DNA of 64,000 nt from a virus. The translations under genes and the position numbers were made by a program. This document shows, in pieces, positions 2,409 to 63,405 of this stretch. The notes below the pieces were generated by a model. It was not told the origin of the DNA. It did not search any database and saw nothing but the letters and a program-made list of their open reading frames with translations. Location: positions 1 through 64,000 of IMG/VR virus record IMGVR_UViG_3300042544_003937; one strand, 5' to 3'. How positions within the stretch are numbered: the stretch's first letter is position 1; every line of letters begins with the position of its first letter.

Positions 2409-2456
2409 AAACATGCAAGATCATGATATATACTAACAATATGACGACTTCTTGTC

Positions 2457-2466
2457 TTAATATATA
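2457..2466 (+). promoter_or_regulatory. late promoter for the fibre locus
   Basis: TTAATATATA, 22 nt before the ATG of the first fibre gene at 2489. It is an exact match to the box core. Confidence 0.6.
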
Positions 2467-2488
2467 ATAAAAATAAACTATTATACTA

Positions 2489-3481: not shown

Positions 3482-6256
3482 ATGGCTTACGCAACAAATA
3501 GTTCAGGAAATTATAGCGGAACAATAATAGTATCACCAATAAGACCTGCAAATCCAAGCTCAACTATAGCAACAGTTTTTTCAAATGAAATCAAAGGTTC
3601 TCATCATACATATGAAACTATTACTGAACGAGACGCAGTCATTGAAAGCAGAAGAGATTGGGGCATGTTGTGTACGGTCTATAATGATCCAACACCTTCT
3701 AATAACAAAACTTATATTTTAAGATACGGGTTTACATCAACAACACTTTTAGATAATGGCAATTGGATTGAATTTGTGACTACGGGTGCTAATTTTGTTC
3801 CAACAGGTGGTGAATGGCTCAATTCAGTTCAAATAGTTTCTGCCACACCTTCAATTTTAACAGATGGTTATAGATATTTAGTAGATGCTGGTGGTATAGG
3901 TGATTTCTTAGGTCAAGATGGAAAAATTGCCCAATATAATTTAGTTGCATTAACTTTTTCTTTTGTTGAACCAACAGATGGAACAACATTGAGAAATGAT
4001 TCTGAACCTAATGTTGTATATAAATATCAGGGATCATTTTCATCCGGCTCATGGGTTAAAGAATACTTGAATCAAGTAAGATATTTAACTGCATATTCTA
4101 TAGATGGTATGAGTTATTCTGCTACTTCAAGTCAGACACCATTGACTTCCTATTCTGATTCTGTATATTATGTTAATTTCAATATGACTTCTTCTGGAAC
4201 TGTATCTTTGAATATAGATTCAATTGGTTTAGTGGATATAAAAAAATTAGAAAATAACACATTAAGTTTCATAAGTACAAATGAAATAATTCCGAATGTT
4301 CAATATCAGTTATTATATAATTCAGGTATATTTCAAACTGTTTTGCCAGCATCGACAACCACAACAATTGGTCCTGCAGAAGATGGTGACTACACGGATG
4401 GATTATTTACAGATTTTACAACATCAACTCCGATAGGCACTACGGTTGATAGATTTAATGAAGTATTGAAATATTTGGCACCACCTATGGCACCAACTTT
4501 TTCAAGCTGGTCAGCTACAGGTTCTTTCGTCAATGGGGGTCTTTCGTTTGACTCTACTGTTGGAGGTTTTGTTAGTGCGACGGGTTCGCCTTATGGCTCA
4601 GTTGGCAAAGGTGAAACATTCTCGAGTTCATCCAATTATTATAGATTAGGAATAATGTCAAAAGTTAATCAACCTATTACAGGAGATCTTTATTATAAAG
4701 ATATTTCAGGAACTTTCAACATATCAGGGACATCTTCTTATGCTTTTGCTACATATTCTTTTGGATTTGCTACTAACGGAACTGTTTCTCTCTTATTAAA
4801 TGGAATTACGATATCCAGTGTCGGATTGACAAACAGTGGTTCAATCGACACAACTTCGAGTGGGTTAACTTCAGGTGTAAATCTTTCATCAGCTACTTCA
4901 TCAAGATTCTCGACTGGTCAAATTTTTCCTATTTACCAAAACAGAACCGGTACTTATTTGATAAAAAGAGATAATTCGAATATTGTAGATGGATATAATT
5001 ATTTTGTCGCTCGTCATGATACTGATATAAATTCTTACATTTTGAGCCAATTTGAGTTTGTTGCTGATGGAAGTACATCATCTGTCAATCCAGTGACAAG
5101 AGTTGTTTCAAGTGTTACATCACCAAGTAAAAAATTCATTTCCGGTATTGAGTATTATAAAGATCCTATGAATTTTGTTTATACTCTAACTCTTTCTAAT
5201 GTCTTAAGTAATACTTTTAACCAATCACCATCGGCTCTTACATTCAAGGATGTTTCAACTCAAGTTTCTTCTGTTACGAATAGCGTAACTGGGACTTTAA
5301 CAAATAATGCAGCTGTTACTTCGCCAGTTGGATTACCCACTAATCAAGTTTTTTATGTTGTTAATAACCAGTTTTTCACACAAAGTATTTTACCACCTCC
5401 TGGTTTTGTTCCATCAACACCTTTATCTTACAACGTAACATATTCTATTGCTACATCCAGAAGAAGAATCAATGACTCAATTGGTTTCGCAGTTGATTTA
5501 TTGAAAACTGTTCAAGGAACTTTCTCAGGAGCTACTTCTCTTGGAACTTCTGTTCCAGTTAATAATTGGTTTATTGATACTGTGCCGGCTGAGTCTACGT
5601 CAATGATTGAATATTTTTCAGATGAAGTTTATAGAAAAAGAAATGGTTCCAACAAATATAATTCTTTCCTTCTAATTTCGGATGTTAATGTTTTATGGAA
5701 TTCGTCTGGCAGTCTCATCGCGGATACTAATAATTGGAATGGTTTACAAGTAATAAACGGAACACTTGTTTATCCAAAATTTGATTTCAACTCAGTTGGT
5801 TCTGCACAAACAAATCCAAATTTTGGAATTCCCAATAGAAATTATTCTACTTCGAATACACTTTTGACCGGTTTTGGAACTAGTTCCACAAGTTCACCAA
5901 CAAATTACAGAACTTACACTAGATATTTCAACCAAGCTGTGGCTAACAGAGCCACTTGGAGAATTTCTATTGACTTTGTTGGGACAACTTTTGTAAATTC
6001 AAATTCACCTTTGATTGGAAATACACCAGTTTGGATTGAAGTTAAAGTTGCAACACAAACTGGTTGGCTTGATCTTACGAAACCTTATATTTCACCAAGA
6101 ACTTCAAATGGTGATGGATGCTACACAAGATACAATTTACTTGGCAACACTTTGAATATAACTTTTACACTCGGAGTGACCTCAAACTTTTTTCTCTTTA
6201 GAGTAACCGCTAATCCAGATTGGACCGGACATATTAGAAGAATAACTGTGTCATAG
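3482..6256 (+). CDS. large tail fibre / adhesin protein
   Basis: A 924-aa Ser/Thr/Gly-rich, beta-predicted protein. Near residues 290-345 it carries the module DGLFTDFTTSTPIGTTVDRF followed by NEVLKYLAPPMAP, also present near the N-terminus of the 595-aa protein at 13961 (SDAIDKIAGVLDRLAPAKSP). The two proteins also share a C-terminal layout: a WRISIDF/WATFNI strand, GWLD or GWID, a P-Y/W-turn, a NGD motif and a final basic beta-strand. They are therefore paralogues, probably with alternative receptor-binding tips. No hydrolase motif was seen. The gene lies 15 bp after the previous fibre gene and is followed by an 70-bp spacer with a late-type box. Confidence 0.65.
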   Translation: MAYATNSSGNYSGTIIVSPIRPANPSSTIATVFSNEIKGSHHTYETITERDAVIESRRDWGMLCTVYNDPTPSNNKTYILRYGFTSTTLLDNGNWIEFVTTGANFVPTGGEWLNSVQIVSATPSILTDGYRYLVDAGGIGDFLGQDGKIAQYNLVALTFSFVEPTDGTTLRNDSEPNVVYKYQGSFSSGSWVKEYLNQVRYLTAYSIDGMSYSATSSQTPLTSYSDSVYYVNFNMTSSGTVSLNIDSIGLVDIKKLENNTLSFISTNEIIPNVQYQLLYNSGIFQTVLPASTTTTIGPAEDGDYTDGLFTDFTTSTPIGTTVDRFNEVLKYLAPPMAPTFSSWSATGSFVNGGLSFDSTVGGFVSATGSPYGSVGKGETFSSSSNYYRLGIMSKVNQPITGDLYYKDISGTFNISGTSSYAFATYSFGFATNGTVSLLLNGITISSVGLTNSGSIDTTSSGLTSGVNLSSATSSRFSTGQIFPIYQNRTGTYLIKRDNSNIVDGYNYFVARHDTDINSYILSQFEFVADGSTSSVNPVTRVVSSVTSPSKKFISGIEYYKDPMNFVYTLTLSNVLSNTFNQSPSALTFKDVSTQVSSVTNSVTGTLTNNAAVTSPVGLPTNQVFYVVNNQFFTQSILPPPGFVPSTPLSYNVTYSIATSRRRINDSIGFAVDLLKTVQGTFSGATSLGTSVPVNNWFIDTVPAESTSMIEYFSDEVYRKRNGSNKYNSFLLISDVNVLWNSSGSLIADTNNWNGLQVINGTLVYPKFDFNSVGSAQTNPNFGIPNRNYSTSNTLLTGFGTSSTSSPTNYRTYTRYFNQAVANRATWRISIDFVGTTFVNSNSPLIGNTPVWIEVKVATQTGWLDLTKPYISPRTSNGDGCYTRYNLLGNTLNITFTLGVTSNFFLFRVTANPDWTGHIRRITVS

Positions 6257-35018: not shown

Positions 35019-35411
35019 TCATATTGAGTGTAAACCCATTCCATCATTCGAAGATTCTATAGAAATCAATCTTATATTGTGCTCAGAATCTCCCTTCTTT
35101 TTGTATAACTCGTTATATCCACGAGCCGTTCCCCTCTTAAATATTTCTGTGAAATAAGCAAAAGCATTATCAGACTTCTCATCATTAAAATTGTGCCAAC
35201 CAGAAAACATATCTAATAATCCTGTTTGATAACAATCTTTTCTGTCGTCCTCATTATAATAACGCATCTTTTTGATGGTTTTCTTGGCTAATATTTCAAG
35301 CATGAGTTTTGCTTTAGGTGTGAGTTTTCCAAGATGTTTGCTTATAACTATTTCAGAAAATAGATCTTTATTTTGTAAATACAATTTTGAAAAGTTATTT
35401 TTTTTATTCAT
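35019..35411 (-). CDS. 55: late transcription sigma factor, T4 gp55-like
   Basis: A 130-aa sigma-like protein. Residues about 50-105 (RYYNEDDRKDCYQTGLLDMF, then W-H-N-F-x-D-E-K-S-D-N-AFAYFTEIFKRGTARGYNEL) follow the region-2 pattern of T4 gp55: an acidic helix, a buried Trp, then aromatic AFAYF helices that recognise the -10 TATA box. It is shorter than T4 gp55 (185 aa). It would direct host RNA polymerase, with the sliding clamp, to the TTTAATATATA boxes in this window. Its own box-like sequence (GAAATATATATAAC) lies at about 35432-35445. Confidence 0.8.
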   Translation of the reverse strand: MNKKNNFSKLYLQNKDLFSEIVISKHLGKLTPKAKLMLEILAKKTIKKMRYYNEDDRKDCYQTGLLDMFSGWHNFNDEKSDNAFAYFTEIFKRGTARGYNELYKKKGDSEHNIRLISIESSNDGMGLHSI

Positions 35412-35475: not shown

Positions 35476-37182
35476 TTATTTTGGATTTAAGATCCATTTT
35501 TTATTACCAGCATTATACAACTTAAAATGACCCATTTCTTCCATTATCTGACTTTCTGACTTACTCATATCAGCACCTAACTTTTTTAATTTGTCTTTTC
35601 TCCAGTTAAACCTGTGTTGTCTTGTGCCATTGATGACCCACCAGTATCCAGGTTTTGAAGTGTGTTGGTAAGTAAATCCCAATTTTTGATATAAGTCACC
35701 AGAAGAAATTAAATTATCAGAATACGTTTGTATTTCTATTGGTTTATAATTTTCTATAAAATACTTCAAAATTTTTGAAGCGGATCCAACAATAACATGA
35801 AAATTCAAATTACAAAATCTTGTCAATTCCCAATAATCTTTCTTATTCTTACCACCAAGTGGTAGTCTAAGTTTAGAAAAGGTCATCAATGAAACTAATT
35901 TATCTTCAAAATAAAGACCAATTCTAACTGATGATTTGCAATCACCTTGAAAATGATTATCCTCTAAAAATCTTTTAGATATTTTTGAATCAACTTCTTT
36001 TATGGAACACTTTCTTGCCCAAATTCTCTTAGAAGTTGCAAGTTTGTTTAACACGAAAGATTCGCAAATTTCTCGTTTTATGCTCCAGTCGTCCTCCCAA
36101 ATATTCACAAGTTTAATCTCCTTTTCTTCACAAAGTTTAAATTTATTTAAATGATAGTCACTTTTTTTAAATTTTTCAGAGTGCCAATAAACACCATTAA
36201 ACTCGAAGGCTAAATTTAATTCGGGTAAAAAAATATCAATTTCATAAGGAGAAATTATATTTTTGTTATTTTGTAAAATTTCTCCTTGATAGTTACTTTT
36301 TATGAAGTTATATAATTCTATTTGTGAAATTGAGATATTCTCGGAGATGGGAAAACAATTGGTACAAATGCTTATATTGCTGTTTCTTCTAAAATAAAAT
36401 TGTTGTGTGTTAATTAAGAACTCTGAGTTACAATCCGGGCATTTAAATATTAAATTTGTAGTTTCGGTTTTATCAAATTTGACAAATTCAAATTTCGTAT
36501 CTTGTATTTTTTCTAAAATTCTTTTTCTGTAACTTTCATAAAACTTTTCAATAGTTTTATCATGTATCTCTTTGCTTTTCCAAGGGTGATCAACTCCATA
36601 TCTTTCTAAACTTGTTTTCTTGTAATTTACTTTATAACTTTCGATATTGGACTTAAATGATTCTATTCTTTTTTGAATTAATTCTTCTGATTTATTCGGA
36701 TTGTCAACTCCCCAATTTTTTTGAAGTGTTTGTTTAGATTTTTCTTGAATTTCTTCAGAACACATTGGTGAATTTGCCCCCCATTTTTCATTATTAGTTT
36801 TAATCATTTTATTTTTAACTAATTGAGATTGGGCAGGTGCTTTTGTTCCAAATTTTTCAAATGATTTATTTTCTTTTAATTTCTTAATTTCAGGGTCGGA
36901 AGAAATACATTTATTTGAACAATATTTCAAATAACCTATTGTCGAATTTCTGAACTTAACTTTGTTATTACAATTTAAATTATTACAGTTTGGAACAGAA
37001 TGAATATTATTCAAAAAAAGAAAAACTCTTTCCTTGAAGGGAATTTCAGAAAGTTCATTTTTATCACTGAAGTCTTTTATTGATTCATAATGATCGGGAA
37101 AATTTTTGATTATATAACTTTCTTTTGACATCTTCCCACTAGGATCTTCCTTCTTGAAATCTTCATAGTTAAGCTCTTGCAT
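35476..37182 (-). CDS. Vsr-like homing endonuclease, free-standing (paralogue 1)
   Basis: A 568-aa protein. ATG 37182 is preferred over ATG 37239, which lies inside the sheath terminator hairpin. Layout: N-terminal part with zinc knuckle C-x4-C-x-x-x...C-x3-C (about 55-85); repeats of the form F-x-(K/R)-(W/F/Y)-G-(V/T/A)-(D/N/K)-x-P-x-x-S-x-E (about 105-225); a C-x2-C and C-x2-C pair (about 250-285); a PD-(D/E)XK/Vsr-like nuclease core IDIFLPELNLAFEFNGVYWH ... YHLNK ... IWEDDW (about 310-375); and a C-terminal GNAT-like domain. Two paralogues sit at 58532 and 61606. It lies between the sheath and gp55 genes, unfixed by operon logic, as mobile genes do. Confidence 0.75.
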   Translation of the reverse strand: MQELNYEDFKKEDPSGKMSKESYIIKNFPDHYESIKDFSDKNELSEIPFKERVFLFLNNIHSVPNCNNLNCNNKVKFRNSTIGYLKYCSNKCISSDPEIKKLKENKSFEKFGTKAPAQSQLVKNKMIKTNNEKWGANSPMCSEEIQEKSKQTLQKNWGVDNPNKSEELIQKRIESFKSNIESYKVNYKKTSLERYGVDHPWKSKEIHDKTIEKFYESYRKRILEKIQDTKFEFVKFDKTETTNLIFKCPDCNSEFLINTQQFYFRRNSNISICTNCFPISENISISQIELYNFIKSNYQGEILQNNKNIISPYEIDIFLPELNLAFEFNGVYWHSEKFKKSDYHLNKFKLCEEKEIKLVNIWEDDWSIKREICESFVLNKLATSKRIWARKCSIKEVDSKISKRFLEDNHFQGDCKSSVRIGLYFEDKLVSLMTFSKLRLPLGGKNKKDYWELTRFCNLNFHVIVGSASKILKYFIENYKPIEIQTYSDNLISSGDLYQKLGFTYQHTSKPGYWWVINGTRQHRFNWRKDKLKKLGADMSKSESQIMEEMGHFKLYNAGNKKWILNPK

Positions 37183-37271: not shown

Positions 37272-40200
37272 TTATGGGATGATAAAACCACCTGCTTGAA
37301 TAGCTCCTGTTCTAAGAACAGTGATATTGTTTACAATGATTCCCATTCCCTTAATTGGTTCGACATAAGTGTCCAACACACCAATCTGATTATCAATTAT
37401 CTCATTTGTATTATTTTCTTCATCACACTTGTTGAAATAATTATATAAACCATTTTTATTTACATATTTATCACAAATGATATCTGCTCTCAACTTGATT
37501 TCGGCTCTCACATCAGGAGTATTGAATCTCCATTGGAAGTCTAACAACATTGATGATAACTCTCTTTCAAGTTCGATAAGAACCTCTCTAACGTGAATAT
37601 AAGAAAGAGCTGATTTGTAAAGAGTTTGAGCTGTATTTTCAGTTTCGATAACATAACCTCTATTACGTTTGAATACAATTGGATTCATTTGAGCTCCATT
37701 CAAATTCTCAATATCTTCTAATGAGAAGTTTGTTTCAATACCCGCAATATTAACAATTCTACCGTTAGTAACACCCGCAGCGATTGTCCAAGGAACGATT
37801 GAGCTTGCATTTGAATTTAATTTTCTCAAATATGTGTTAGCTACAAACATAGCTGGTGGAACGTCTGTTGGTCTTCCGTTATCATTTACAATAAGGTATG
37901 GAGTGAAATATCCAACACTTGAAACACCTCTACCATCACCAAATGAATATAAGAAAGCTGGACTTGATTCTGGATCACCACCTTGTGCTATAAATGATGT
38001 TTGAACAACACCTTCAGAATCTACAAATGATGGTGAAGTTGAATTCTTGAAAGATTTCATAGAAGGCATATTCAAGAAACCAAAACAATCTAATCTGTCA
38101 CCACAAAGATCAACTAACTGTTGTTTAGATCTCTCGGTTAAACCAAGACCAAATGTGTCAACAACATATCTGAAGTCGATAGCTTCTTTATTTGTTAATG
38201 CTTTTGCCAAAGTTGTTCCTTTTGCGATCAAATTAAGAATTGCAGTTTGTCTTGCTTCTGTTCCATCAGGCATTGAAGCTTCTCTCATTCTAAATCCTCT
38301 CAATGAAATACCTTTATATGTTGAAACATAATCTTCAATTGAAGTATATCTCATTGTTTGAAGGTCTGTTCCAACTGCATATTTTTCAATAGCAGCATCA
38401 CATGTGATTTCAACAAGAGTTGTGTCAGCTGCATATGATCTTTTAGAAAGAATTCTTGTAAGATTTCTTGGTTTTTCACCAGCGACTGGAGTTGTATCAA
38501 CTTGAGCCTCTAAGAAATCACCAACTTTAACTTCTGTATATCTTGAACCTTTAACCAAAATCTTATTAGCAACTTGTGTATAACCTGCTGGTTGCTCGAT
38601 TTCGATAGTTTGTTTGTAATTTAGTTTATTAGACCACACTTCAAATTGAGAATCATTTGTAATATCAATTTGTTCTGATGTAGCTAAAGATGAATCTGTG
38701 AAATCGACAAATAGATTTTCTGAAGAATCTAAATACATTTTAAGATAATGTTTCTTATCAGCATCCCAAATGAATTTAACATTTGATAAATCTTCATTTA
38801 CAACGTCAACACCATCTGTTTTATAGATCTCATAAGGTCCTGGAACATAATAAGTAGCTGTAATTGGGTCAATTAGATCGGTTACTACTACTGGATTTGC
38901 TGATGTCAATTGTATTGCTGCTAGATTAAATGTAGAACTAGGTACATAAATCTTCTTAGTATCATCAACATCAGTTCCTGTTGTAACAATAACATAACTG
39001 AATGTTCCTTCATTTTGGAATACAAGTCTCACTGGAGATGTTGGATCCAAAAGGTTACCGTGGAAATAATCAGCTGTATTGATTTGACCATTATAGAAAT
39101 CTTGGTAGAATCCTGAATATTTAGCAACAACACCAGATGCTGTTGGTACACCAACTGTGTTTTTAGTTTCTAAACCAACCTCGCCAAGAGTCAACTCATT
39201 GTCAATTTTGTAGAATACTAAGTTACCTGCTAAAATATCAGAAGGAGTTGCAGTCAATCCCAATGCAAGTGTGAAACTCTTATCTGATGTTGTTGAATTT
39301 TGAGATGTTGTGACAGAAGAATTTTCTAAAGAGAATTTTTCTTGAGAGTTTAGGTCTCTAATCATAGTTCCTTTCAAAGCATCAACAGATTCGAAGTAGT
39401 TAAACATCTTATTGAATAACCTAACTCTTCTATATTTTTCATAATTTTTAGAAGTAATTGATCCTGAAGTAGCGGTGAATCCAACTTTTATTGTACCGGC
39501 TGTTGTTTGTGTAATTGAATAATCAGTTCCTAAAACTAATGGATTATAACCAGTTGTATTTACACCTATATGTGTTACTGCAATACTACTTGTCACAAAA
39601 TATCCACCTGATGCACTAAACCCTAAATAACTCAAAACTAAGTCTTCGTTTGAAGATGGTGAAGGGAATGTATTTGCAACAGTGCTGTGGGCAACTTCAA
39701 TGTTACCGGTTGTTGCATTAAGATAAGCAACAGAATAGTAACTTTGTGTTGTCGCAGTTGTTGAATACTGTGAAGAAGCAAAAGAAAAAGTATATGTGTT
39801 TGGAACACCATCATTCACTAATACTTTGGTTCCGTTTGTGATGAAATAAGCTTCGGATGTTGTCAAACCACCGCCAATTGTAGCAGTTGTTACATCATAC
39901 CCAAAAGTGATGGATGTCGTTGTTCCAATGAATAAACTAGCACTGTATCCAACTCCATTGATATATTCTTCGTGGAAGAATGCTGATCTATCTTCTCCAC
40001 CCCATACATTTTGCATAAGTGTTGAAACAGATGCACCTAAAGCAAAAACATTTTGACCATCTGAACCACCTGGAATATCTAATGGTGTTGCTTCATATCC
40101 TTTAAATTCAATAAGATTTGCATTATAAGATAGGAAATCAACAGTTGTGATTCCCTGGTCAACTAATCCGTCGGTTGTTACGAGGTTGTTACCAATAAGG

Positions 40201-41120
40201 TCAACCATCAAAGATGGATAATCTTTTTCAAATTTATCCATATTGAATGCGCAGAAAAGACCAGTTCTGTCAGTATCATTATTAACGATTGTTTCGATGA
40301 AAATATTTCTACCATTCAAATCTCTGAAGAATGGAATAAGTGAAAGTCCTTCATAATAAGCAAGAAGATTAACACCTCTGTCGTTAACAAAGTCTCTCAA
40401 TTTATTTTTATCGATACCAGTAGAAGTGAAATATTGTGACCATCTTGGATCAACACTTAATTGTGAATAATTTGTCCAATCACCACCAACTGCTACTAAG
40501 TCGATCATATATTCTGATGCGTAATCTAATTGATTCACATAAAGTGGAACTTTTTCAGCTGATCCGTAGAAGTCTAAAAGAGGTCTATTATAACCAGTCA
40601 ATCTAGTTTTGAATGCGAAAATAGTCACATATCTATCTGACATATTTGTGAAGTGTAGAAGTCTGTCATCATCACCAAGATCGTTTGTTACTAAATTTGT
40701 GAATGATTCAGTGTCTCTTTTCCAGAAACCTGTTGTGTCGAAAAATCTTCTATATGCACCTTCTCTTGTGATGTCATTTGATTTGTCACTTCTGGTAGAA
40801 AAAGATTTATATTCAATTTTATCAAGTGTATCTGAAGTTGAAAGAAGATTCATCACATATACTTGGTTTGATTCAAGTAGTTTCGCAACTGTTCTGTGAA
40901 GAAAAGATCCTTTTCTTTCAAGAGTTCTATCAAGTGGACCGAAAATTCTTTCTAAATCAGCAAGTGTTTGAACTAATACAGGTGTATTAACGGGACCTTT
41001 TTTAGAAAAACCCGCAACAAAAGTTGAAGTTCCAGTAACCGTTGGACTGGTTATTATGGAATTATCGAATTCTTCTATGAAGATACCTGGGCGTTTGTAT
41101 TTACCAATTTGAATTGCCAT
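37272..41120 (-). CDS. 18: tail sheath protein, gp18-like
   Basis: A 1282-aa sheath protein. The N-terminus (YKRPGIFIEEFDNS, TSTFVAGFSKKGPVNTPVLV, then the F-G-x-L-D) is the standard start of contractile sheath proteins. The C-terminus is the conserved core (about 1040-1282: S-S-P-A-F-L-Y, V-P-P-A-x-F-V, PWTIAAG, the VREVLIELERELSS helix, W-R-F-N-T-P and a final GAIQAGGFIIP strand). Standard sheaths are 400-700 aa; T4 gp18 is 659. The extra length, mostly 330-950, is Gly/Ser/Thr-rich beta material of the kind that decorates the outside of the tail. It contracts to drive the tube through the envelope. Confidence 0.9.
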   Translation of the reverse strand: MAIQIGKYKRPGIFIEEFDNSIITSPTVTGTSTFVAGFSKKGPVNTPVLVQTLADLERIFGPLDRTLERKGSFLHRTVAKLLESNQVYVMNLLSTSDTLDKIEYKSFSTRSDKSNDITREGAYRRFFDTTGFWKRDTESFTNLVTNDLGDDDRLLHFTNMSDRYVTIFAFKTRLTGYNRPLLDFYGSAEKVPLYVNQLDYASEYMIDLVAVGGDWTNYSQLSVDPRWSQYFTSTGIDKNKLRDFVNDRGVNLLAYYEGLSLIPFFRDLNGRNIFIETIVNNDTDRTGLFCAFNMDKFEKDYPSLMVDLIGNNLVTTDGLVDQGITTVDFLSYNANLIEFKGYEATPLDIPGGSDGQNVFALGASVSTLMQNVWGGEDRSAFFHEEYINGVGYSASLFIGTTTSITFGYDVTTATIGGGLTTSEAYFITNGTKVLVNDGVPNTYTFSFASSQYSTTATTQSYYSVAYLNATTGNIEVAHSTVANTFPSPSSNEDLVLSYLGFSASGGYFVTSSIAVTHIGVNTTGYNPLVLGTDYSITQTTAGTIKVGFTATSGSITSKNYEKYRRVRLFNKMFNYFESVDALKGTMIRDLNSQEKFSLENSSVTTSQNSTTSDKSFTLALGLTATPSDILAGNLVFYKIDNELTLGEVGLETKNTVGVPTASGVVAKYSGFYQDFYNGQINTADYFHGNLLDPTSPVRLVFQNEGTFSYVIVTTGTDVDDTKKIYVPSSTFNLAAIQLTSANPVVVTDLIDPITATYYVPGPYEIYKTDGVDVVNEDLSNVKFIWDADKKHYLKMYLDSSENLFVDFTDSSLATSEQIDITNDSQFEVWSNKLNYKQTIEIEQPAGYTQVANKILVKGSRYTEVKVGDFLEAQVDTTPVAGEKPRNLTRILSKRSYAADTTLVEITCDAAIEKYAVGTDLQTMRYTSIEDYVSTYKGISLRGFRMREASMPDGTEARQTAILNLIAKGTTLAKALTNKEAIDFRYVVDTFGLGLTERSKQQLVDLCGDRLDCFGFLNMPSMKSFKNSTSPSFVDSEGVVQTSFIAQGGDPESSPAFLYSFGDGRGVSSVGYFTPYLIVNDNGRPTDVPPAMFVANTYLRKLNSNASSIVPWTIAAGVTNGRIVNIAGIETNFSLEDIENLNGAQMNPIVFKRNRGYVIETENTAQTLYKSALSYIHVREVLIELERELSSMLLDFQWRFNTPDVRAEIKLRADIICDKYVNKNGLYNYFNKCDEENNTNEIIDNQIGVLDTYVEPIKGMGIIVNNITVLRTGAIQAGGFIIP

Positions 41121-48095: not shown

Positions 48096-48144
48096 AGAAG
48101 CCTTTTTTTACTATATATATGTAAAAAATTCGAGTTCCCTCAGA

Positions 48145-48672
48145 ATGGCTAAGAAAGTAGTAAACGAAGAAGAAGAAAGGAAAATTGTTTTTAGTACGAA
48201 ACTTGTTGAAGAAACTACCAACAAAATTAATGATGGTATAATTGTTAAAAGATACCAGAATCCCTGGTTTCAAAATGAAGTTGGTGTTAGAAGAGCAGGT
48301 CTGACATTCAGGATGACCGATGATGAAATTCAAGAGTATATTAAATGTAAATTAGATATAAGTTATTTTGCTGAAAAATATTGTAGGATTAAGACCGAAG
48401 ATGGTTCTGTTCAGAATATAAAATTAAGAGATTATCAAAAAGATGTCCTAAATCTTTATACAAAAAACAGATTTTCAATATTATGCGCATCTAGACAAAT
48501 TGGTAAGTGTTTTTCTTTTAATACAATTGTCTCTTTGAAAATTGACGAAATAGAATTTGACGTGAGAATTGGAAAACTTTATTATGATTTGCTTTCAAAG
48601 GAAAGAAGATTGACTTTTTCCGAGAAAATGAAAATATTTTTTTATGATATTATTTATTTTTTAGATAAATAA
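48145..48672 (+). CDS. 17: terminase large subunit, N-terminal part + N-intein
   Basis: A 175-aa product that encodes TerL residues 1-121 and then an N-terminal intein fragment. The extein matches T4 gp17: a QVLxxF-like adaptor (YFAEKYCRI), KLRDYQKDVLNLY, then the Walker A start CASRQIGK (residues 114-121; T4 has SRQLGKT). Directly after GK comes Cys122 and CFSFNTIVSL, a standard intein block A. The ORF ends at residue 175 with a hydrophobic helix. Block B is absent here and found in the next gene, so this protein must trans-splice to give a functional motor. ATG 48145 (MAKKVVNEEEE) is chosen over an upstream TTG. Confidence 0.9.
   Translation: MAKKVVNEEEERKIVFSTKLVEETTNKINDGIIVKRYQNPWFQNEVGVRRAGLTFRMTDDEIQEYIKCKLDISYFAEKYCRIKTEDGSVQNIKLRDYQKDVLNLYTKNRFSILCASRQIGKCFSFNTIVSLKIDEIEFDVRIGKLYYDLLSKERRLTFSEKMKIFFYDIIYFLDK
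48508..48669 (+). mobile_element. N-terminal half of an atypically split intein (TerL)
   Basis: 54 codons from Cys122 of the first terminase ORF to its stop. Block A only (C-F-S-F-N-T-I-V). The tail LTFSEKMKIFFYDIIYFLDK is amphipathic and hydrophobic, and similar in character to the start of the C-half. Confidence 0.85.
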
Positions 48673-48748
48673 AAATCCTTTTTGAATACTCAAGAAATCG
48701 AAGTTGGGTAAGTGAGCGTAGAAAAAACAAAAAGAAAATAGTTGATAG

Positions 48749-49198
48749 ATGCTTAAATTTTTTAAAAATATAATAATAAATTTTCTTTACTTTCTAATAA
48801 GATCAATAGAAAAGTATGAGTATAGAAATTTTGAATTGGATGAGAATGATATATCAAAGAAGATTTTGAATCAAATTGGTAAACTCAATGTATCTGTTAA
48901 ATCTGATAGTGGATGGGTCAATGCTTCTGATATTTATTTAACTCAACCATTCAGCACTTGGAAAATTGAATTGGAAAATGGATTAATCTTAGAATGTGCT
49001 GATATACATATTGTTTTTGGTGAAAATTTCGAACAAATTTTTTGTAAAGATTTGAAAATTGGTCAGTTGATACAAACGAAATTTGGTCTTTGTTCCGTAA
49101 AAAAGATAACCGAGTTTAGTCGTAAGCAATCCATGTTTGACTTGAGTATTGAACATTCAGATCATAGATTTTATACGAATGGTATATTGAGTCATAAT
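48749..49198 (+). mobile_element. C-terminal half of an atypically split intein (TerL)
   Basis: 150 codons from the start of the second terminase ORF. It includes block B (LECADIHIVF, with the conserved His), block F (DLSIEHSDHRFYT) and block G (GILSHN), ending in His-Asn with Thr as the +1 extein residue. The starting helix MLKFFKNIIINFLYFLIRSI is hydrophobic. There is no homing endonuclease domain. Confidence 0.85.
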
Positions 49199-50995
49199 AC
49201 AATTAACGCCGCAATAGCAATGTTACACTTCATTACTTTCAATAACGATAAAAACATTATGATTGTTGCGAACATTGCCGGAACTACAATTGAGATTATT
49301 GATAAAATAAAAGGTATTTATACACAGTTGCCATTTTTCTTGAAGACTGGTATAAAGAACTGGAATCAGCGTTCAATGATTTTTGAAAATGGATGTCGTG
49401 TCAAATCAGCCGCAAGAAGTAAGACACCAGCAATCGGTTTTACAATAGACTTTCTTTATCTTGACGAGTTTGCACACATTCCAAGTAATATCATAGAACC
49501 TTATTATACAGCAGTATTCCCAACCGTATCAGCAATCGAAAACTCGAAAATCATAATAACTTCTACTCCAAATGGTATGAATCTTTTCTATAAATTATTA
49601 ACAGATGCTGAAAGACCTGCTGGTGACCCACAAAAAAATAACTATAAAGCTATGAGAGTCTATTGGTATCAGGTTCCTGGTAGATTTGTTACTTACTTTA
49701 GGTTAAATGATCATAGAATGTGGGAATGTGGTCTTGATAAAGATGAAGTGTTTAAACAGGCTGTTGAAACATTTGGTGATAAAACGAAGGTTGAAATGAA
49801 ATACATACCAGATATAACGAAATGGGTTATATACGTCTATAATAATGCAGAATGTCCTGATACTCTTGTTAAAAGTTTTCAAGTTATAAAAGATGATAAG
49901 GAAATATCGATATTTTCATTAGCTGAAGTCACGACTTGGAAAGAAGAGGCGATAAAGGACATTGGTGGAGAAGACGCTTTTAATCAGGAATATGGTTTGA
50001 GATTTGTGAATGCGACAAGATCTTTGTTAAACGAAAGTTTGATTGAGAGATTGTTAACAAATAAGAAAAATTATGTTTGGAGAGATTTGGATCAATTCAA
50101 TAAGAGATTGAAATTCTCTTATACTGGTTTACAATGGATTGATGATGAAACAGTTTTTAATCCAGCATTGAGAGAAACATATAAGGGTGTTATGTCTATT
50201 GACATATCTGAAGGATTGGGTCAGGACTACTCAGTTATTAATATTTTCAAAATAAGTCCTAAATCAGATGATATTATAGAATTAAATAAAAAGAAATATA
50301 CAAATATTGCGGACTTTTTCTGTTTAGAACAAATAGCAATGTTTAGAAGTAATTTGGTTTCGGTTAAGCAGTTATCTGAATTGTTTTATGTTTTACTTTT
50401 TGAATATTTTAACTATGAGAATTTTAAAGTTGTTTTAGAGTTGAATAACTATGGAAATGAATTTTTAGCACATCTACCGAATACTTTTGAAGGGAATAAT
50501 AATTATGGATCTTCAGTTTTCTTCCGTTATAAACACAGAGCAGATTCTCCAGATGAAAAAATAGGGTTGAAAGTTGGTGAAAATAAGAATATTTTTGTTA
50601 AAGAATATCAGGATGCTATGCAGAATAATAGTTTTATTATTTCTAATGAAGAAAATGTAAAAGAGATAACTACTTTTGTTAAACATATCACATCTGCGGG
50701 AAACATTAGATATGCTTCGGATATTGGACATGATGATACGGTCATGACATTGGTAGATGGTTCAACTGTTTTTTCTAAACCATCTTATAGAGAGATGGTG
50801 GAGTTATATGCTGAACAAAATATACCTAGAGAAAAATTAAATTATTGGTATTCTATATTAAAAGAATTAGATTACACTGAAATTGTTGATTATTCAACAA
50901 TAATCAACATCAACAAACAAAGGAGACTGAGAGAACAATTGGAAAGTTCCAGAACAAAAGTTTATGGAAATAACGGAAATTGGTTTGGAAAATAA
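48749..50995 (+). CDS. 17: C-intein + terminase large subunit, C-terminal part
   Basis: A 748-aa product. Residues 1-150 are the C-intein; 151-748 are TerL from the Walker A Thr onward. After T151 the sequence follows T4 gp17: INAAIAMLHFITFNNDKN, Walker B FLYLDE (about 235-240), and the coupling motif TSTPNG (271-276). The nuclease domain has SIDISEGLGQDYS (about 483), VVLELNNYGNEF (about 561) and IGHDDTVM (about 660), carrying acidic residues of the RNase H-like headful nuclease. Trans-splicing with the first ORF would give a mature TerL of about 719 aa. A 76-bp spacer separates the two ORFs. Confidence 0.9.
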   Translation: MLKFFKNIIINFLYFLIRSIEKYEYRNFELDENDISKKILNQIGKLNVSVKSDSGWVNASDIYLTQPFSTWKIELENGLILECADIHIVFGENFEQIFCKDLKIGQLIQTKFGLCSVKKITEFSRKQSMFDLSIEHSDHRFYTNGILSHNTINAAIAMLHFITFNNDKNIMIVANIAGTTIEIIDKIKGIYTQLPFFLKTGIKNWNQRSMIFENGCRVKSAARSKTPAIGFTIDFLYLDEFAHIPSNIIEPYYTAVFPTVSAIENSKIIITSTPNGMNLFYKLLTDAERPAGDPQKNNYKAMRVYWYQVPGRFVTYFRLNDHRMWECGLDKDEVFKQAVETFGDKTKVEMKYIPDITKWVIYVYNNAECPDTLVKSFQVIKDDKEISIFSLAEVTTWKEEAIKDIGGEDAFNQEYGLRFVNATRSLLNESLIERLLTNKKNYVWRDLDQFNKRLKFSYTGLQWIDDETVFNPALRETYKGVMSIDISEGLGQDYSVINIFKISPKSDDIIELNKKKYTNIADFFCLEQIAMFRSNLVSVKQLSELFYVLLFEYFNYENFKVVLELNNYGNEFLAHLPNTFEGNNNYGSSVFFRYKHRADSPDEKIGLKVGENKNIFVKEYQDAMQNNSFIISNEENVKEITTFVKHITSAGNIRYASDIGHDDTVMTLVDGSTVFSKPSYREMVELYAEQNIPREKLNYWYSILKELDYTEIVDYSTIININKQRRLREQLESSRTKVYGNNGNWFGK

Positions 50996-53356: not shown

Positions 53357-54004
53357 ATGAAACACATTAGAAAATTCGAATCATTTCAGAATAAAATTAG
53401 AAGAGAACAAATTATCAAAGAATCAGTAATTGAAGTTGATGATCTTTACAAAGTGAGAACAACAGTTGATATTCCACAATCTCTTATCAATGCTTATGTC
53501 AAAAAAGTAAAAGAAGTGTCTGGTAAAAACTTGAGACAGTATTTCGGAGATGTTGATATCGCTGAAGAAATCGTAAAATATCTTACAGTCGCTGGTTTAG
53601 ATGTTGAAAAAATCCCAGGGAATGCTATCTTAGGTGGTCCTCAAGCACAACAACAAGCACAACAAGGTCAAACTCAACAAGGTCAGGCTCAGACTGGTCA
53701 GGAAGATGGTGACGACTACGAAGATGTTCAACAAGGACAAGGACAACAAGGTCAGGGTCAGCAAGGTCAACCTCAACAAAAGGCTCAACAAGGACAAGCT
53801 CAGCAAGGACAAGGTCAAGAAAAGGCTCAACAAGGACAGGCTCAACAAGGACAAGGTCAAGAAAAGGCTCAACAAGGACAAGCTCAGCAAGGACAAGGTC
53901 AAGAAAAGGCTCAACAAGGACAAGCTCAGCAAGGACAAGGTCAAGAAAAGGCTCAACAAGGTCAAGGTCAACAAGACGAAGAAGAATTACCTGAAGAAGA
54001 ATAA
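53357..54004 (+). CDS. Gln-rich repeat protein with targeting-like N-terminus
   Basis: A 215-aa protein. It starts MKHIRKFESFQNKI, the recurring pattern. Residues about 30-95 form a small helical/beta domain (VRTTVDIPQSLINAYVKKVK). From about 97 to 207 it is low-complexity Gln/Gly with a 14-residue unit KAQQGQAQQGQGQE repeated four times plus a partial copy, ending in EE-rich acid. The repeats are also tandem in DNA. A stalled or cargo-linker protein inside the head, or a flexible structural spacer, fits; nothing specific is known. Confidence 0.65.
   Translation: MKHIRKFESFQNKIRREQIIKESVIEVDDLYKVRTTVDIPQSLINAYVKKVKEVSGKNLRQYFGDVDIAEEIVKYLTVAGLDVEKIPGNAILGGPQAQQQAQQGQTQQGQAQTGQEDGDDYEDVQQGQGQQGQGQQGQPQQKAQQGQAQQGQGQEKAQQGQAQQGQGQEKAQQGQAQQGQGQEKAQQGQAQQGQGQEKAQQGQGQQDEEELPEEE
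53780..53979 (+). repeat. 42-bp coding tandem repeat, four full copies and part of a fifth
   Basis: Units start at 53780, 53822, 53864 and 53906, each 42 bp in frame (14 codons) with only a few synonymous differences, then a degenerate copy from 53948. Copy number may vary between isolates by slippage. Confidence 0.9.
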
Positions 54005-58531: not shown

Positions 58532-60256
58532 ATGATAAAAATAAATACAATTAAAATCCCTCTAAAAGATTGTAGAAAATTAGAATATTTTATATCTCTC
58601 GGATATGAATGTATTGATGACTTCATAGAAATAAGAATTGAAGATTTGAATGTTGGTTCTAGAAAAGTTGTTCCAGTTGCATGTGATTTTTGTGAAAATG
58701 AAGTTGAAACCACTTATAAGGAATATTTGAGAAATATAAAAACCGGTGGAAATTTTTCCTGTTCTAAAAAATGTGGATATCTTAAAGCAAAAAAATCAAA
58801 TATTGAAAAGTACGGGGTTGAACATCCTTTAAAATTACAAGAATTTAGAGAGAAGCAATCCAATACTAATTTAGAAAGATATGGTGTTGAATTTCCCCAA
58901 CAATCAAAAGAAATAAGAGAAAAAACAAAAAAATCCTATTTAGAAAATTTTGGAGTTGAACATATTTCGCAGCTAAATGAAAATAGAGAAAGATCAAGAA
59001 ATTGGTTATCTTCAAATGAATTCAGAGAGAAATCAAAAAAAACACTCTTTGATAATTACGGGGTAGATAATCCTTCTCAATCTGAAGAGATACAAAATAT
59101 TATCAAGCTAAATAATATTAGTAAATGGGGAACTGAATATCCTTCACAATCTGATGTGTTCAAAGAAAAAGTAAAGAATGTATTTTTATCAAAATATAAT
59201 GTTGACAACATAACAAAGTCAGAGGAATTTAGAAAAAATAATTTTGGGGTTGCAAAAGAACCTAATTATTTATCTTATGTTGGTGATGGATATAGTCTTT
59301 TTAAATGTGATAATAATCTAGAACATCAATTTTTAATTTCTTGTGATATCTACATAAAAAGAAAGTTGTCAAATAAACTCTGTACAGTATGTTACCCAAT
59401 TGGTGACACACCTTCACTGAGAGAATTGGACCTATTGGAATGGATTAAATCTATTTATTCCGGAGAAATTATAAAATCACATAGAGATGACACGGAAATT
59501 GATATTTATATTCCGGAAATGAAACTGGGATTTGAATTTAATGGTTTATACTGGCATTCGGATAAATTTAGAGAAAAAAATTATCATCTAAATAAAACGA
59601 ATTTTTTCAGAGATAGAGGTATCAGAATTATACACATTTGGGAAGATGATTGGTTAAATAAAAATACAGTCATTAAAAGTCAAATTAGAAATATTTTTAA
59701 GTTGAATGAAAATAAAATATTCGCTAGAAATTGTAAAGTTGAAATATTATCAGATAATAAAATAGTAACAAAATTTCTAAATGAAAATCACTTACAGGGT
59801 GCGGATAAGAGTAAAATTAAAATCGGACTTTTTTATAAAGATGAATTAACTTCTTTGATGACGTTCAATAAATTAGAAGGAAGAAAATTATTGAGTGATG
59901 ATGAATGGAATCTATCAAGGTTTTGCACAAAAATGAATTGTAATGTTATTGGAGGTGCGTCCAAATTATTATCATTTTTTATAAATCAATTTAAACCAAA
60001 AAGAATTATTAGTTATGCTGATAAGGATTGGAGTATGGGAGAACTGTACGAAAATCTTGGATTTATTAAAATATCCGAATCAAAGCCTGACTATAAATAT
60101 GTCACTAATGGAGTTAGAAAAAATAAATCCAATTTTAAAAAATCAAAATTAAACACGAAATTAAGTGAATCATTAGAAATGAAAAATAGAAATATACTTA
60201 GGATTTGGGATTGTGGAAAAATAAAATTTGAATATCTTGTGCGTAAAGAGAATTAA
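58532..60256 (+). CDS. Vsr-like homing endonuclease, free-standing (paralogue 2)
   Basis: A 574-aa relative of the genes at 35476 and 61606. N-terminal Cys pair C-D-F-C and C-S-K-K-C-G (about 50-85), repeats with (K/R)-Y-G-V-E-x-P-x-Q-S-x-E-x-R-E-K and related units from 90 to 240, a C-x2-C pair, nuclease core EIDIYIPEMKLGFEFNGLYW ... YHLNK ... IIHIWEDDW (about 325-370), then the GNAT-like C-terminal domain (NENHLQGADKSKIKIGLFYK, GGASKLLSFF). It is flanked by a duplicated gene 3' end and terminators, the mark of a recent insertion. Confidence 0.8.
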   Translation: MIKINTIKIPLKDCRKLEYFISLGYECIDDFIEIRIEDLNVGSRKVVPVACDFCENEVETTYKEYLRNIKTGGNFSCSKKCGYLKAKKSNIEKYGVEHPLKLQEFREKQSNTNLERYGVEFPQQSKEIREKTKKSYLENFGVEHISQLNENRERSRNWLSSNEFREKSKKTLFDNYGVDNPSQSEEIQNIIKLNNISKWGTEYPSQSDVFKEKVKNVFLSKYNVDNITKSEEFRKNNFGVAKEPNYLSYVGDGYSLFKCDNNLEHQFLISCDIYIKRKLSNKLCTVCYPIGDTPSLRELDLLEWIKSIYSGEIIKSHRDDTEIDIYIPEMKLGFEFNGLYWHSDKFREKNYHLNKTNFFRDRGIRIIHIWEDDWLNKNTVIKSQIRNIFKLNENKIFARNCKVEILSDNKIVTKFLNENHLQGADKSKIKIGLFYKDELTSLMTFNKLEGRKLLSDDEWNLSRFCTKMNCNVIGGASKLLSFFINQFKPKRIISYADKDWSMGELYENLGFIKISESKPDYKYVTNGVRKNKSNFKKSKLNTKLSESLEMKNRNILRIWDCGKIKFEYLVRKEN

Positions 60257-60584: not shown

Positions 60585-61619
60585 ATGAAATGGATTAAAA
60601 ACTGGAAAACTATTCAATTAGAAAAAAAAGAGTATTCTAAAAAACTATCACTTATACTCGAAGGGCTCTCCTTAATAGTGACCTCTGATGAGCTTATAAA
60701 TGTTTTAGAAAAAATAAAAGCAAATAGAATCGCAGACGAACTTCTCAGTTTTCTCAATAAAGAAAAAAGAGAAACTTCTTATAATTATCTAAATCTTACT
60801 GATAAAGATGATGAAATAGGATTTCTACCCGATAATCAATTTCAAAGATTCAAAGCAACAACTCAAGATTATAAGTCAAAAACAAGATCATTTGTAAAAG
60901 TCGGAAGGCTAATAACCTCACTATTCTCGGATAACGATATTAGCTATACAAAAGAAGAATTAGATGATTTCATCGATAAATTCAAAGCAGCAAACTCTGA
61001 CTCTCAAAATAAGACTATAGAAATAGTCGAAGGTGATGAAATAGCCTTTTGGTATAACGAAGAAAATTATTTATACAAAGATGAAGGGGGAACACTCTGC
61101 AAATCTTGTATGCGTGAATCTTATAAATCACCCTGGTTTAAAATCTATACCGAGAATCCTGATAAAGTCAAAATGGTGATAATGACCTATGAAGGAAAAT
61201 TATTAGGTAGAGCCTTACTCTGGAAGATCGATTCAGGTGAGTTTTTCTTAGATAGAATTTATACAAGATTCCCCTCTGATGAGTTTGTAATAGATGAATG
61301 GACTAAGAAGAATTACAAAGGTCTAATTTCCTATCAAGATGAAGGTGCTTATCTATGTGTACAAGATCCAGATGAAGTCTTGACAGTATCACTTCAACAA
61401 ACAAATTTTGAAGAATTTCCTTTCGCCGACACTCTCTGTTATCTCTATCAAGAATTAGAAGATGGGCAAGTCACAGGACCTGGTTTTGTTTCAAATAAAT
61501 TAGATAAAATAGGCGGTTACCTCATTTCTAAAATACAATCTCATTTATCTGGTCAGAAAGCTGTGTCTTCACATGTCTGGTCTAACACCACAGGAACATG
61601 GATTTCTAAAAATGTCTAA
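60585..61619 (+). CDS. hypothetical protein with targeting-like N-terminus and Cys pair
   Basis: A 344-aa protein. ATG 60585 (MKWIKNWKTIQLEKKEY) is preferred over an upstream frame start because it fits the promoter spacing and the recurring N-terminal pattern, with a possible cut after QLE. A helical part (about 20-140) precedes a beta domain. C-K-S-C-M-R (about 190) suggests a metal or disulfide site. It contains aromatic motifs (SPWFKIYTENPDKVKMVIM). No family recognised. Its end overlaps the convergent endonuclease gene by 14 bp. Confidence 0.6.
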   Translation: MKWIKNWKTIQLEKKEYSKKLSLILEGLSLIVTSDELINVLEKIKANRIADELLSFLNKEKRETSYNYLNLTDKDDEIGFLPDNQFQRFKATTQDYKSKTRSFVKVGRLITSLFSDNDISYTKEELDDFIDKFKAANSDSQNKTIEIVEGDEIAFWYNEENYLYKDEGGTLCKSCMRESYKSPWFKIYTENPDKVKMVIMTYEGKLLGRALLWKIDSGEFFLDRIYTRFPSDEFVIDEWTKKNYKGLISYQDEGAYLCVQDPDEVLTVSLQQTNFEEFPFADTLCYLYQELEDGQVTGPGFVSNKLDKIGGYLISKIQSHLSGQKAVSSHVWSNTTGTWISKNV

Positions 61620-63405
61620 TCCATTTTTGCATTCCACAGTCATAAATTTTATTGTATCCAAGTTCAGACATGATTTTTGATTCACTTAGTTCTGGATTTG
61701 CACCACCACTTACTAACTTATCTTTTCTATAATTGAATCTATGCTTTCTCAAACCATCAACTATATAATAGTAATTTGTGTCAGATAAATGCGAAAATTC
61801 GAAGCCAAGTTTTTTGTAAAGGTTTCCAGTTGAACGACTATAATCACAAAAACTAATCACAGTTTTTGGTGAATATTTTTTGATGAAGTGTGAGAATAAT
61901 TTAGAAGCACCTCCAACAATAGTTAAACCAATTTTATTAGAAAATCTAAGAAGCTCCCAACTATTGTCACTATTATTATAACCTAAAGATTTTCTTAGGC
62001 TTCCAAAAGTCATCAAACTTACTAACTCGCCCTCATAAAATAAACCTAATTTTATTTTTGAACCAACAAATCCTTGTAAGTGATTCTTTTCTAAAAATTC
62101 TCTGGTCAAATCGTTACCAATGATTTTTATTTCACATTTTCTTGCAAAAATTCTTTTTGTAGTTAAACCTAATTTATTTGAAATGATGGATTTAACTATC
62201 TCTCTCTTATATAACCAATCATCTTCCCAAATATGAATCAACTTAATATCATTAGATTCAAAGAACTTTGTTTTATCTAGATGGAAATTATTCGATTTAT
62301 GTAGATTAGAATGCCAATATAATCCATTATATTCAAATCCTATTTTCAATTCGGGTATGTAAATATCAATCTCTCTTCCTTCTAATCTGAATCTTTTTAT
62401 TATTTCTCCAAAATAAATGGATTCTATAAATTCATAAACTTCTTCTTCAGCACCTGACTTTCCAACATTCAAAGGATTACAATTCAGGCAAATTTCTAAA
62501 TTGGAATTTTTTCTATGAACTAGAAGTTGTCTTGTTATATCAAAATCTTTATCACATTGACAACAATGTATTTTGATGTAGGACTCTGTTTCATTTTGAT
62601 TATACTTTCTATCTATATAAGTAAGATTGCTTGGAAGAATTTCAACAATCTTGCCAGTTATTTTTGATTTATAACTTTCAACTCTCTTTTGAATAATTTC
62701 TTTGGCTGATAAGTGATGTTCTGTTCCAAACTTTCGTAAAGAAGATTCTCTAATTTTTTCATTTCTATGTCTATTGAATTCTTCTAATGAGCCGAAATTT
62801 TCAATTATTGTTTTTCTCTTTTGATTTTCGATTAGTAATTTATCTTCTTCTGTTTTATTTAAAAATTTTTCTTTTCTTGTATTATTTATTTCTTCTTTTG
62901 ATGGATTTTCTTTCCAAGATTGTAGTGACTTTTCACTTATTTCGGAGTTTTGTTGTGCCCACTCAACACCCCACTTTTCCAGCATAGTTTCCTTGAATTT
63001 CGTTTTCACCTCTTCATCGAGCATATAATGTTTACCATTCCATTTCTCTAAGATGTTAGCCTTTTCCTTTTCAATAATTTCTGCTGACTTTTTCGGATTA
63101 TCTACACCCCATTTCTTTATACAAGTTTCCTTTCTTGACTTTACAAAACATTCTTTTTTTCCACAAGTTTTTCTATATCCATTCTTGAATCCAATGAAGC
63201 TAAGATGTGAACCACACTCACAGTTTAATGCTAACTTGATGTCATTGACAAGATAGTAAATTTTTTCAGATAATTGTCTATCTTGTATTTCTTTAGGAAT
63301 ATTGGAATTTATAAAATCTAAATATTCATTGTGATTCTTAACAAAAAGAACAAGTGATCCAATGTTAGATGTTTTATTTATAATTTCTTGAAGTGTCGTA
63401 TTCAT
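61606..63405 (-). CDS. Vsr-like homing endonuclease, free-standing (paralogue 3)
   Basis: A 599-aa paralogue of the genes at 35476 and 58532. Features: Cys pairs (C-E-C-G, C-G-K-K-E-C, about 77-105), (K/E)-K-W-G-V-D/E-x repeats (about 110-250), C-x2-C and C-x2-C pair (about 275-310), nuclease core EIDIYIPELKIGFEYNGLYW ... FHLDK ... LIHIWEDDW (about 340-390), and the C-terminal GNAT-like domain (KNHLQGFVGSKIKLGLFYEG, GGASKLFSHF) with a small final WIRHF. ATG 63405 has a TATATA box 5 nt upstream. It lies convergent with the 344-aa gene, without any operon partner. Confidence 0.8.
   Translation of the reverse strand: MNTTLQEIINKTSNIGSLVLFVKNHNEYLDFINSNIPKEIQDRQLSEKIYYLVNDIKLALNCECGSHLSFIGFKNGYRKTCGKKECFVKSRKETCIKKWGVDNPKKSAEIIEKEKANILEKWNGKHYMLDEEVKTKFKETMLEKWGVEWAQQNSEISEKSLQSWKENPSKEEINNTRKEKFLNKTEEDKLLIENQKRKTIIENFGSLEEFNRHRNEKIRESSLRKFGTEHHLSAKEIIQKRVESYKSKITGKIVEILPSNLTYIDRKYNQNETESYIKIHCCQCDKDFDITRQLLVHRKNSNLEICLNCNPLNVGKSGAEEEVYEFIESIYFGEIIKRFRLEGREIDIYIPELKIGFEYNGLYWHSNLHKSNNFHLDKTKFFESNDIKLIHIWEDDWLYKREIVKSIISNKLGLTTKRIFARKCEIKIIGNDLTREFLEKNHLQGFVGSKIKLGLFYEGELVSLMTFGSLRKSLGYNNSDNSWELLRFSNKIGLTIVGGASKLFSHFIKKYSPKTVISFCDYSRSTGNLYKKLGFEFSHLSDTNYYYIVDGLRKHRFNYRKDKLVSGGANPELSESKIMSELGYNKIYDCGMQKWIRHF

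Follow-up and report, generated by a model that had tools for sequence, protein, structure and literature searches.

How could a phage obtain a working terminase large subunit (TerL) from a gene that is broken in the middle of its Walker A motif? This question is raised by a locus on the virus contig IMGVR_UViG_3300042544_003937 (65,324 bases) from IMG/VR, in which the terL gene lies in two open reading frames (ORFs), each carrying one half of an intein. The stretch that we analysed, referred to below as the window, covers positions 1-64,000 of this record. We consider it highly probable that terL is a fractured gene here, that a split intein in the Walker A motif is removed by trans-splicing to give a TerL of 719 residues, and that the endonuclease gene of the element has been deleted to its last 22 codons. 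The features of the locus are as follows, where IntN and IntC denote the N- and C-terminal intein halves and the exteins are the flanking parts of TerL.

48145..48507, plus strand: TerL N-extein, 121 aa, up to ..SRQIGK of the Walker A motif (phrog_5989, E 1.5e-20)
48508..48669, plus strand: IntN, 54 aa, with Cys1 and block A (CFSFNTIVSL), an N2-like helix (RIGKLYYDLLSKE) and the first half of a helical arm; stop codon at 48670-48672
48673..48748, plus strand: spacer, the site of the endonuclease gene in relatives (from gap sizes across cassettes)
48705..48773, plus strand: homing endonuclease remnant, last 22 codons (WVSERRKNKKKIVDRCLNFLKI) and stop (from the match to the family hidden Markov model)
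48749..49198, plus strand: IntC, 150 aa, with the second half of the helical arm, block B (ADIHIVF), an N4-like segment (KDLKIGQLI), block F (MFDLSIEHSDHRF) and block G (NGILSHN) (from relatives and profile matches)
49199..50992, plus strand: TerL C-extein, 598 aa, beginning with Thr+1, with the remaining ATPase and the nuclease domain; stop codon at 50993-50995 (Pfam Terminase_6N, 2.5e-13; phrog_36964, 5.9e-23)

Structure of the split terL gene

ORF 1 (48145-48672, +) encodes 175 aa; its TerL part terminates in ..ILCASRQIGK, the Cys1 codon of the intein follows at 48508, and the frame is closed by TAA at 48670. ORF 2 (48749-50995, +) encodes 748 aa, in which IntC terminates in ..NGILSHN and the Thr+1 codon at 49199 opens the rest of TerL. 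The break point lies in the Walker A motif, between K and T (GK/T), and 76 bp separate the ORFs. An earlier reading of this DNA (the original prediction) had described a TerL made in two pieces, with Walker A broken after GK and 54 + 150 intein residues on either side of a 76 bp gap; the ORF coordinates agree, and its expected ligated product of about 719 residues corresponds to an extein sum of 121 + 598 = 719.

Both halves match terminase families (phrog_5989, E 1.5e-20 and 1.4e-16), and phrog_2 is also among the terminase matches; the phrog_36964 profile itself carries an insert at the split position. The Walker A sequence SRQ.GKT together with the remaining terminase identifies a TerL of the T4 gp17 type. 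The N-extein is 52-88% identical to the same part in relatives, intein-bearing and intein-free alike, and at this stretch a contiguous homologue, L136 (homologous loci are given L numbers), matches the T4 gp17 structure.

The two ORFs are in different frames, stops occur in all three frames around the gap, and TGA TAG stands immediately 5' of the second ATG, the start of ORF 2. Because of these frames and stops, no single-base error can join the ORFs. The sequencing error that the original prediction had named as a danger to itself is thus excluded, also by the recurrence of the split in 55 relatives.

Intein motifs and homology

The residues of a class 1 intein are present in the window: Cys1, H87 in block B, D131 and H139, H149-N150, and Thr+1. 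Across 15 aligned IntC sequences, H87, D131, H139, H149 and N150 are invariant. IntN is 44-64% identical to the IntN of close relatives aligned by tblastn, with lower values in others, and IntC is 46-62% identical to that of relatives. The Pfam family Intein_splicing gave a weak, sub-threshold match (0.0027) to the window IntC alone; the intein is thus missed at the Pfam cut-off with a single sequence and is found by the IntC family profile, which matched the solved inteins VidaL (1e-10), gp41-1 (1e-8) and CatC (2e-8). Matches of the family profile to "Tako8" repeat proteins in the PDB summed several weak repeats and were judged to be due to chance.

Block A lies in ORF 1 and blocks B, F and G lie in ORF 2, so the split separates A from B and precedes the usual endonuclease site, as had been proposed. 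These data support the assignment, from sequence, of a naturally split class 1 HINT intein with an atypically positioned break, which would be active in splicing. The claim of an atypically split intein is borne out by its conservation and catalytic residues, by its homology to VidaL and Cat, by a contiguous homologue and, in relatives, by purifying selection on both halves.

Relatives with the same split

IMG/VR was scanned with the C-half and with the IntC alignment as queries, and the hits were confirmed by tblastn; each scan gave 80 loci, with many contigs in both, and the count of split cassettes takes in only loci with both halves close together. The same split was found in at least 55 distinct IMG/VR cassettes, with an IntN of 44-66 aa and an IntC of mostly 143-156 aa. 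Cys1 is present in 55/55 cassettes and SHN followed by T in 53/55, the other two having NHNT and SHNS. The terL gene is uninterrupted at exactly the same point in another 57 distinct alleles, some of which came from a later scan. The exteins nearest to those of the window belong to L001 (79% identity), which is split with a homing endonuclease gene (HEG), and just beyond it stand intein-free alleles. On an extein tree built with FastTree, intein presence and absence require at least 18 changes, 10 of which are forced by well-supported branches.

Among bacterial genome contigs, five weak relatives were found, one of them in a Flavobacterium metagenome-assembled genome (MAG). The contig of the IntC relative L221 (NZ_JAQTPQ010000098.1; 37%) is binned to a Flavobacterium MAG, which may hint at the host phylum or may reflect a mis-binned phage.

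The endonuclease gene and its remnant

In most relatives a free-standing, same-strand ORF of about 323-338 aa, the HEG, lies between IntN and IntC and commonly runs 8, 25 or 28 nt into the start of IntC. Its C-terminal domain (residues about 195-327) was predicted by AlphaFold2 (AF2), mostly at a predicted local distance difference test (pLDDT) score above 80, to have a Vsr-like nuclease fold. This domain is like those of Vsr (Z 11.1 by VIA) and I-Bth0305I (Z 9.7), both of the EDxHD type, though its Foldseek E values are no better than 0.02-0.03. The HEG product differs from these proteins in its Ros/MucR-like zinc-finger N-terminus, for which the matches are weak, and in a middle part without confident fold.

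In the window, the third frame of the spacer reads WVSERRKNKKKIVDRCLNFLKI followed by a stop, which corresponds to positions 307-328 of 329 in the HEG profile at 12.7 bits. None of 3000 dinucleotide shuffles, read in six frames, reached this score (best 9.9), and the remnant was the top match of the HEG profile in a scan of the whole window. The remnant extends 25 nt into IntC, the same overlap as in 8 intact cassettes. Because the spacer keeps the last 22 codons of the HEG, we read the locus as a fractured gene whose endonuclease has been lost; this remnant is an addition to the original prediction. Since the endonuclease gene has been deleted to a stump, the element in the window is probably no longer self-mobile, while the phage probably still needs trans-splicing.

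Other cassettes show related states. The halves are separated by 42-284 bp in seven other cassettes and by 943-1872 bp in the remaining ones; short gaps occur in L106-L108 and L116, and partial HEGs are kept in L115 (positions 266-328) and L159 (positions 302-327). The exact window spacer had no second copy in the IMG/VR contigs searched. The gap of L012 (4263-5987, -) holds a different, antisense endonuclease of 575 aa with DUF7487 repeats and a restriction-like domain. In L011 this gene has decayed and from L010 it has disappeared; the flanking DNA of the three loci is about 90-98% identical.

A DUF7487-type endonuclease gene also lies in the gap of L050 and L009. In L146 and L148 a relative of the Vsr-type HEG occupies the opposite strand of the gap (2153-3079, -), and a duplicated IntC fragment (positions 11-38) is found there at 3536-3619.

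Cassette mobility and selection

Synonymous divergence (dS) differs sharply between cassette and extein in several pairs of relatives. For L142/L145 the cassette dS is 0.02 and the extein dS is 0.55 (p 1e-35), and the cassettes of L152/L153 are identical at an extein dS of 0.07. The reverse is seen when L030, L097 and L098 are compared to L020 and L037, with an extein dS of 0.02-0.07 and a cassette dS of about 0.7. Cassette and extein divergence are therefore uncoupled, which argues that IntN-HEG-IntC is transferred and replaced as one unit; the mosaic pairs are few and partly related. Together with the patchy distribution of the intein, these mosaics hint indirectly at homing driven by the endonuclease. 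The DNA around the empty site is not unusually conserved (0.81 upstream and 0.71 downstream, against 0.63-0.82 nearby), and this ordinary conservation lends no support to a particular cut site.

The ratio of nonsynonymous to synonymous divergence (dN/dS) in IntN and IntC was 0 to 0.47 across all pairs of relatives measured. Among the L010, L011 and L012 alleles it was 0 to 0.38 in the intein halves; L010 and L011 have lost the endonuclease. These ratios support purifying selection on both intein halves in the relatives.

Fold and position of the split

L136 encodes a 194-residue contiguous intein inside a TerL of 801 aa, without an endonuclease. We modelled it by AF2 with alignment A8, which left out IntN rows; the mixed IntN and IntC alignments A3, A4, A6 and A7 were misaligned by MAFFT and were left out. 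The model has an intein-like beta fold of the HINT type, with low confidence at the start of IntN. Its top Foldseek match was VidaL (6e-6), accompanied by many other inteins and Hint relatives, and VIA gave Z 9.1 for VidaL, Z 8.2 for Cat and up to Z 9.6 among inteins and Hint relatives. Between blocks A and B the model contains two helices (residues 60-73 and 77-108), and the alignment places the break of the other family members within the second one. The contiguous intein of Klebsiella phage Magnus (159 aa) lacks most of this helical arm.

Published atypically split inteins have an IntN of 15-37 aa and a break after strand b2 (S1) or helix a1 (S2) (PMC13014065), a range that describes known members and is not a strict definition. 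AceL-TerL, GOS-TerL and the TerL-type consensus Cat (PDB 6dsl) likewise interrupt TerL, with a short IntN holding block A only and a long IntC holding blocks B to G. GOS-TerL uses Ser1/Cys+1 (PMC10189870), whereas the window intein has Cys1/Thr+1. VidaL (PDB 6vgv) is the closest solved intein, whether judged by sequence profile (1e-10) or from the model (Foldseek 6e-6, Z 9.1), but its IntN has 16 aa, with a break after strand b2 and no helical arm at the split (PMC13014065). The arrangement had been assigned to the AceL-TerL type; the split between A and B and the homology to VidaL and CatC stand, but the locus is not simply AceL-TerL, because its IntN has 54 aa (44-66 aa in the 55 cassettes) and the break lies within the additional helical arm, beyond a1. 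The extra arm and the longer IntN set this family apart, and our guess is that the arm helps the halves to associate. We tentatively propose, at somewhat less than even confidence, a distinct subtype of split intein in which the arm between blocks A and B served as the entry point of the endonuclease and later as a docking element. After loss of the endonuclease, as here, the split would be hard to undo, and TerL, an essential motor protein of DNA packaging, would stay dependent on trans-splicing, with its two genes free to drift apart.

Fractured genes, in which a split intein is combined with a free-standing homing endonuclease, were reportedly described by Dassa et al. in 2009. AceL NrdHF (PMC7891396) and MIJ3 PolB (PMC6892783) are likewise made of two ORFs, each with an intein half, and an endonuclease gene between them; for the family studied here the endonuclease gene is intact only in relatives, the window keeping no more than a stump. 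The break of AceL NrdHF is at the usual site (98 + 48 aa), around a GIY-YIG gene, in contrast to the A/B split and the Vsr-like endonuclease of the relatives. The N-part of MIJ3 PolB holds blocks A to N4 and its partner is an HNH gene, whereas here the N-part holds block A only. Contiguous TerL mini-inteins of Ackermannviridae (Klebsiella phage Magnus, Vibrio phage VP-1, most of about 300 phage records) share the GK/T site, Cys1, SHN and Thr+1, but they lie in one ORF and have no endonuclease, and the 159-aa intein of Magnus lacks most of the arm.

The kind of system is thus already known from fractured genes and from atypical split inteins of the AceL-TerL type. The interest lies in the documented loss of the endonuclease and in the series of states at one homologous site: an empty site, a contiguous intein, splits that hold the usual endonuclease gene, a different antisense one or just a stump, and dispersed halves. 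They place an atypical split intein in its genomic and evolutionary setting, and they open to direct test both the life cycle of fractured genes and the way in which a selfish element comes to leave its host gene split for good. For protein engineering, the family offers dozens of new split inteins whose break is unusually placed. Phage classification also relies widely on TerL, and annotation can easily overlook a split or intein-bearing copy or measure it wrongly.

Proposed mechanism and alternatives

In the mechanism that we propose, the two TerL halves would be translated separately, and IntN (54 aa) and IntC (150 aa) would associate and fold into one HINT domain. Class 1 trans-splicing, through a Cys1 thioester, a Thr+1 branch and Asn cyclisation, would then ligate the exteins into a gp17-type TerL of 719 residues with the P-loop GKT intact. 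In relatives, the Vsr-type endonuclease would cut intein-free terL and the whole IntN-HEG-IntC cassette would be copied in; in the window phage, the endonuclease gene would have been deleted except for its last 22 codons. Several points weigh against this account. Splicing itself and the cutting of the empty site are events that we infer. The AF2 confidence at the start of IntN is poor (pLDDT under 50), because alignment A8 had no IntN rows. The record is a 65-kb fragment, and the genome may hold an intact second TerL elsewhere. The window also has no close relative for a measurement of selection, and its allele might have died recently, in a defective phage.

The main rival, which we regard as improbable, is that a working terminase forms from the two polypeptides by non-covalent association, without splicing. 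The two terL genes are adjacent and probably co-expressed, and PMC10448857 cites a reported case of this kind, a phage ribonucleotide reductase whose gene is split by an endonuclease gene. However, the break lies inside the P-loop, between K and T, and Cys1 with HN/T or HN/S is kept in 55/55 cassettes; a split without splicing would have no reason to keep these residues, which makes non-covalent assembly unlikely. We give an equally small chance to a decayed, non-functional allele, either in a defective phage or alongside another terL in the genome. The reduction of the HEG to a stump and the incomplete 65 kb record would fit this explanation, but both ORFs are open, all the catalytic residues are present, and the start and overlap match those of HEG-bearing relatives. 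In addition, the endonuclease-less L010 and L011 belong to a group that keeps the dN/dS of the intein halves at 0 to 0.38.

Trans-splicing of a fractured gene also accounts for the locus better than an error or an intron. In a metagenomic contig one might suspect that a contiguous intein was broken by an assembly or sequencing error, given that the contiguous homologue L136 exists; the different frames, the stops in every frame, the HEG remnant, the same split in 55 relatives and the opposite-strand or far-apart halves elsewhere make this exceedingly unlikely. Phage genes are often interrupted by introns, and joining at the RNA level by a group I or II intron could be envisaged. Yet protein-level intein motifs lie on both sides of the gap, a search of 48100-49400 against Rfam gave no match up to E 0.1, and we attach almost no weight to this explanation.

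Dispersed halves in other phages

In other phages, two cultured ones among them, the halves lie 3-172 kb apart and often on opposite strands. They are on opposite strands and 3 kb apart in L007, 12 kb apart in L161 (LR756501, 735 kb), about 67 kb apart on a 270-kb contig, and about 22 kb apart on opposite strands of a 152-kb contig. In the cultured Vibrio phage vB_VmeM-32 (KU160494), L163 (1102-3216, +) and L172 (79947-80624, -) are about 77 kb apart, and the two TerL halves are VmeM32_00107 and VmeM32_00001. The TerL of the cultured Salicola phage SCTP-2 (MF360958) extends over three genes with two split inteins: L210 (429356-429748, -), L219 (256428-257321, +) and L220 (215993-218077, -). 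Because the halves are far apart or on opposite strands, trans-splicing would be the sole intein route to a whole TerL in these dispersed cases. Inteins go unmentioned in the papers that describe vB_VmeM-32 and huge phages; others may nevertheless have noticed these dispersed terminases.

Further inteins and variants accompany some of these loci. The apparent order in SCTP-2 is N-extein and IntN1, then IntC1, the middle extein and a second IntN at LLY/C. Its third gene has the second IntC at NVSQ/C and the rest of TerL, which holds a third, contiguous intein (TIS/C...GSN/T). The C-half of vB_VmeM-32 carries a second, contiguous intein after VDE (VDE/C...SHN/C). The IntC of LR756501 ends in ILNLN/T rather than ILSHN/T, so that the penultimate His is absent, and this genome has a second TerL-like ORF at 700703-701029. 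In L021 (7990-9040), L030 (8000-9050) and near copies, a second contiguous TerL intein with LAGLIDADG-like endonuclease motifs is placed after the nuclease motif (GHDD/C or GNDD/C ... VVHN/C).

Other genes in the window

The late sigma factor gp55 (phrog_234; 35019-35411, -) and the tail sheath (37272-41120, -) lie in the same record, consistent with the genomic setting with gp55 and sheath that the original prediction had described. The window contains three more genes for free-standing homing endonucleases, all from a single family (phrog_3339), at 35476-37182 (-), 58532-60256 (+) and 61606-63405 (-), one of which sits between gp55 and the tail sheath. The protein predicted at 53357-54004 (+) has a tract of Gln/Gly-rich repeats (QGQAQQGQGQEKAQ).
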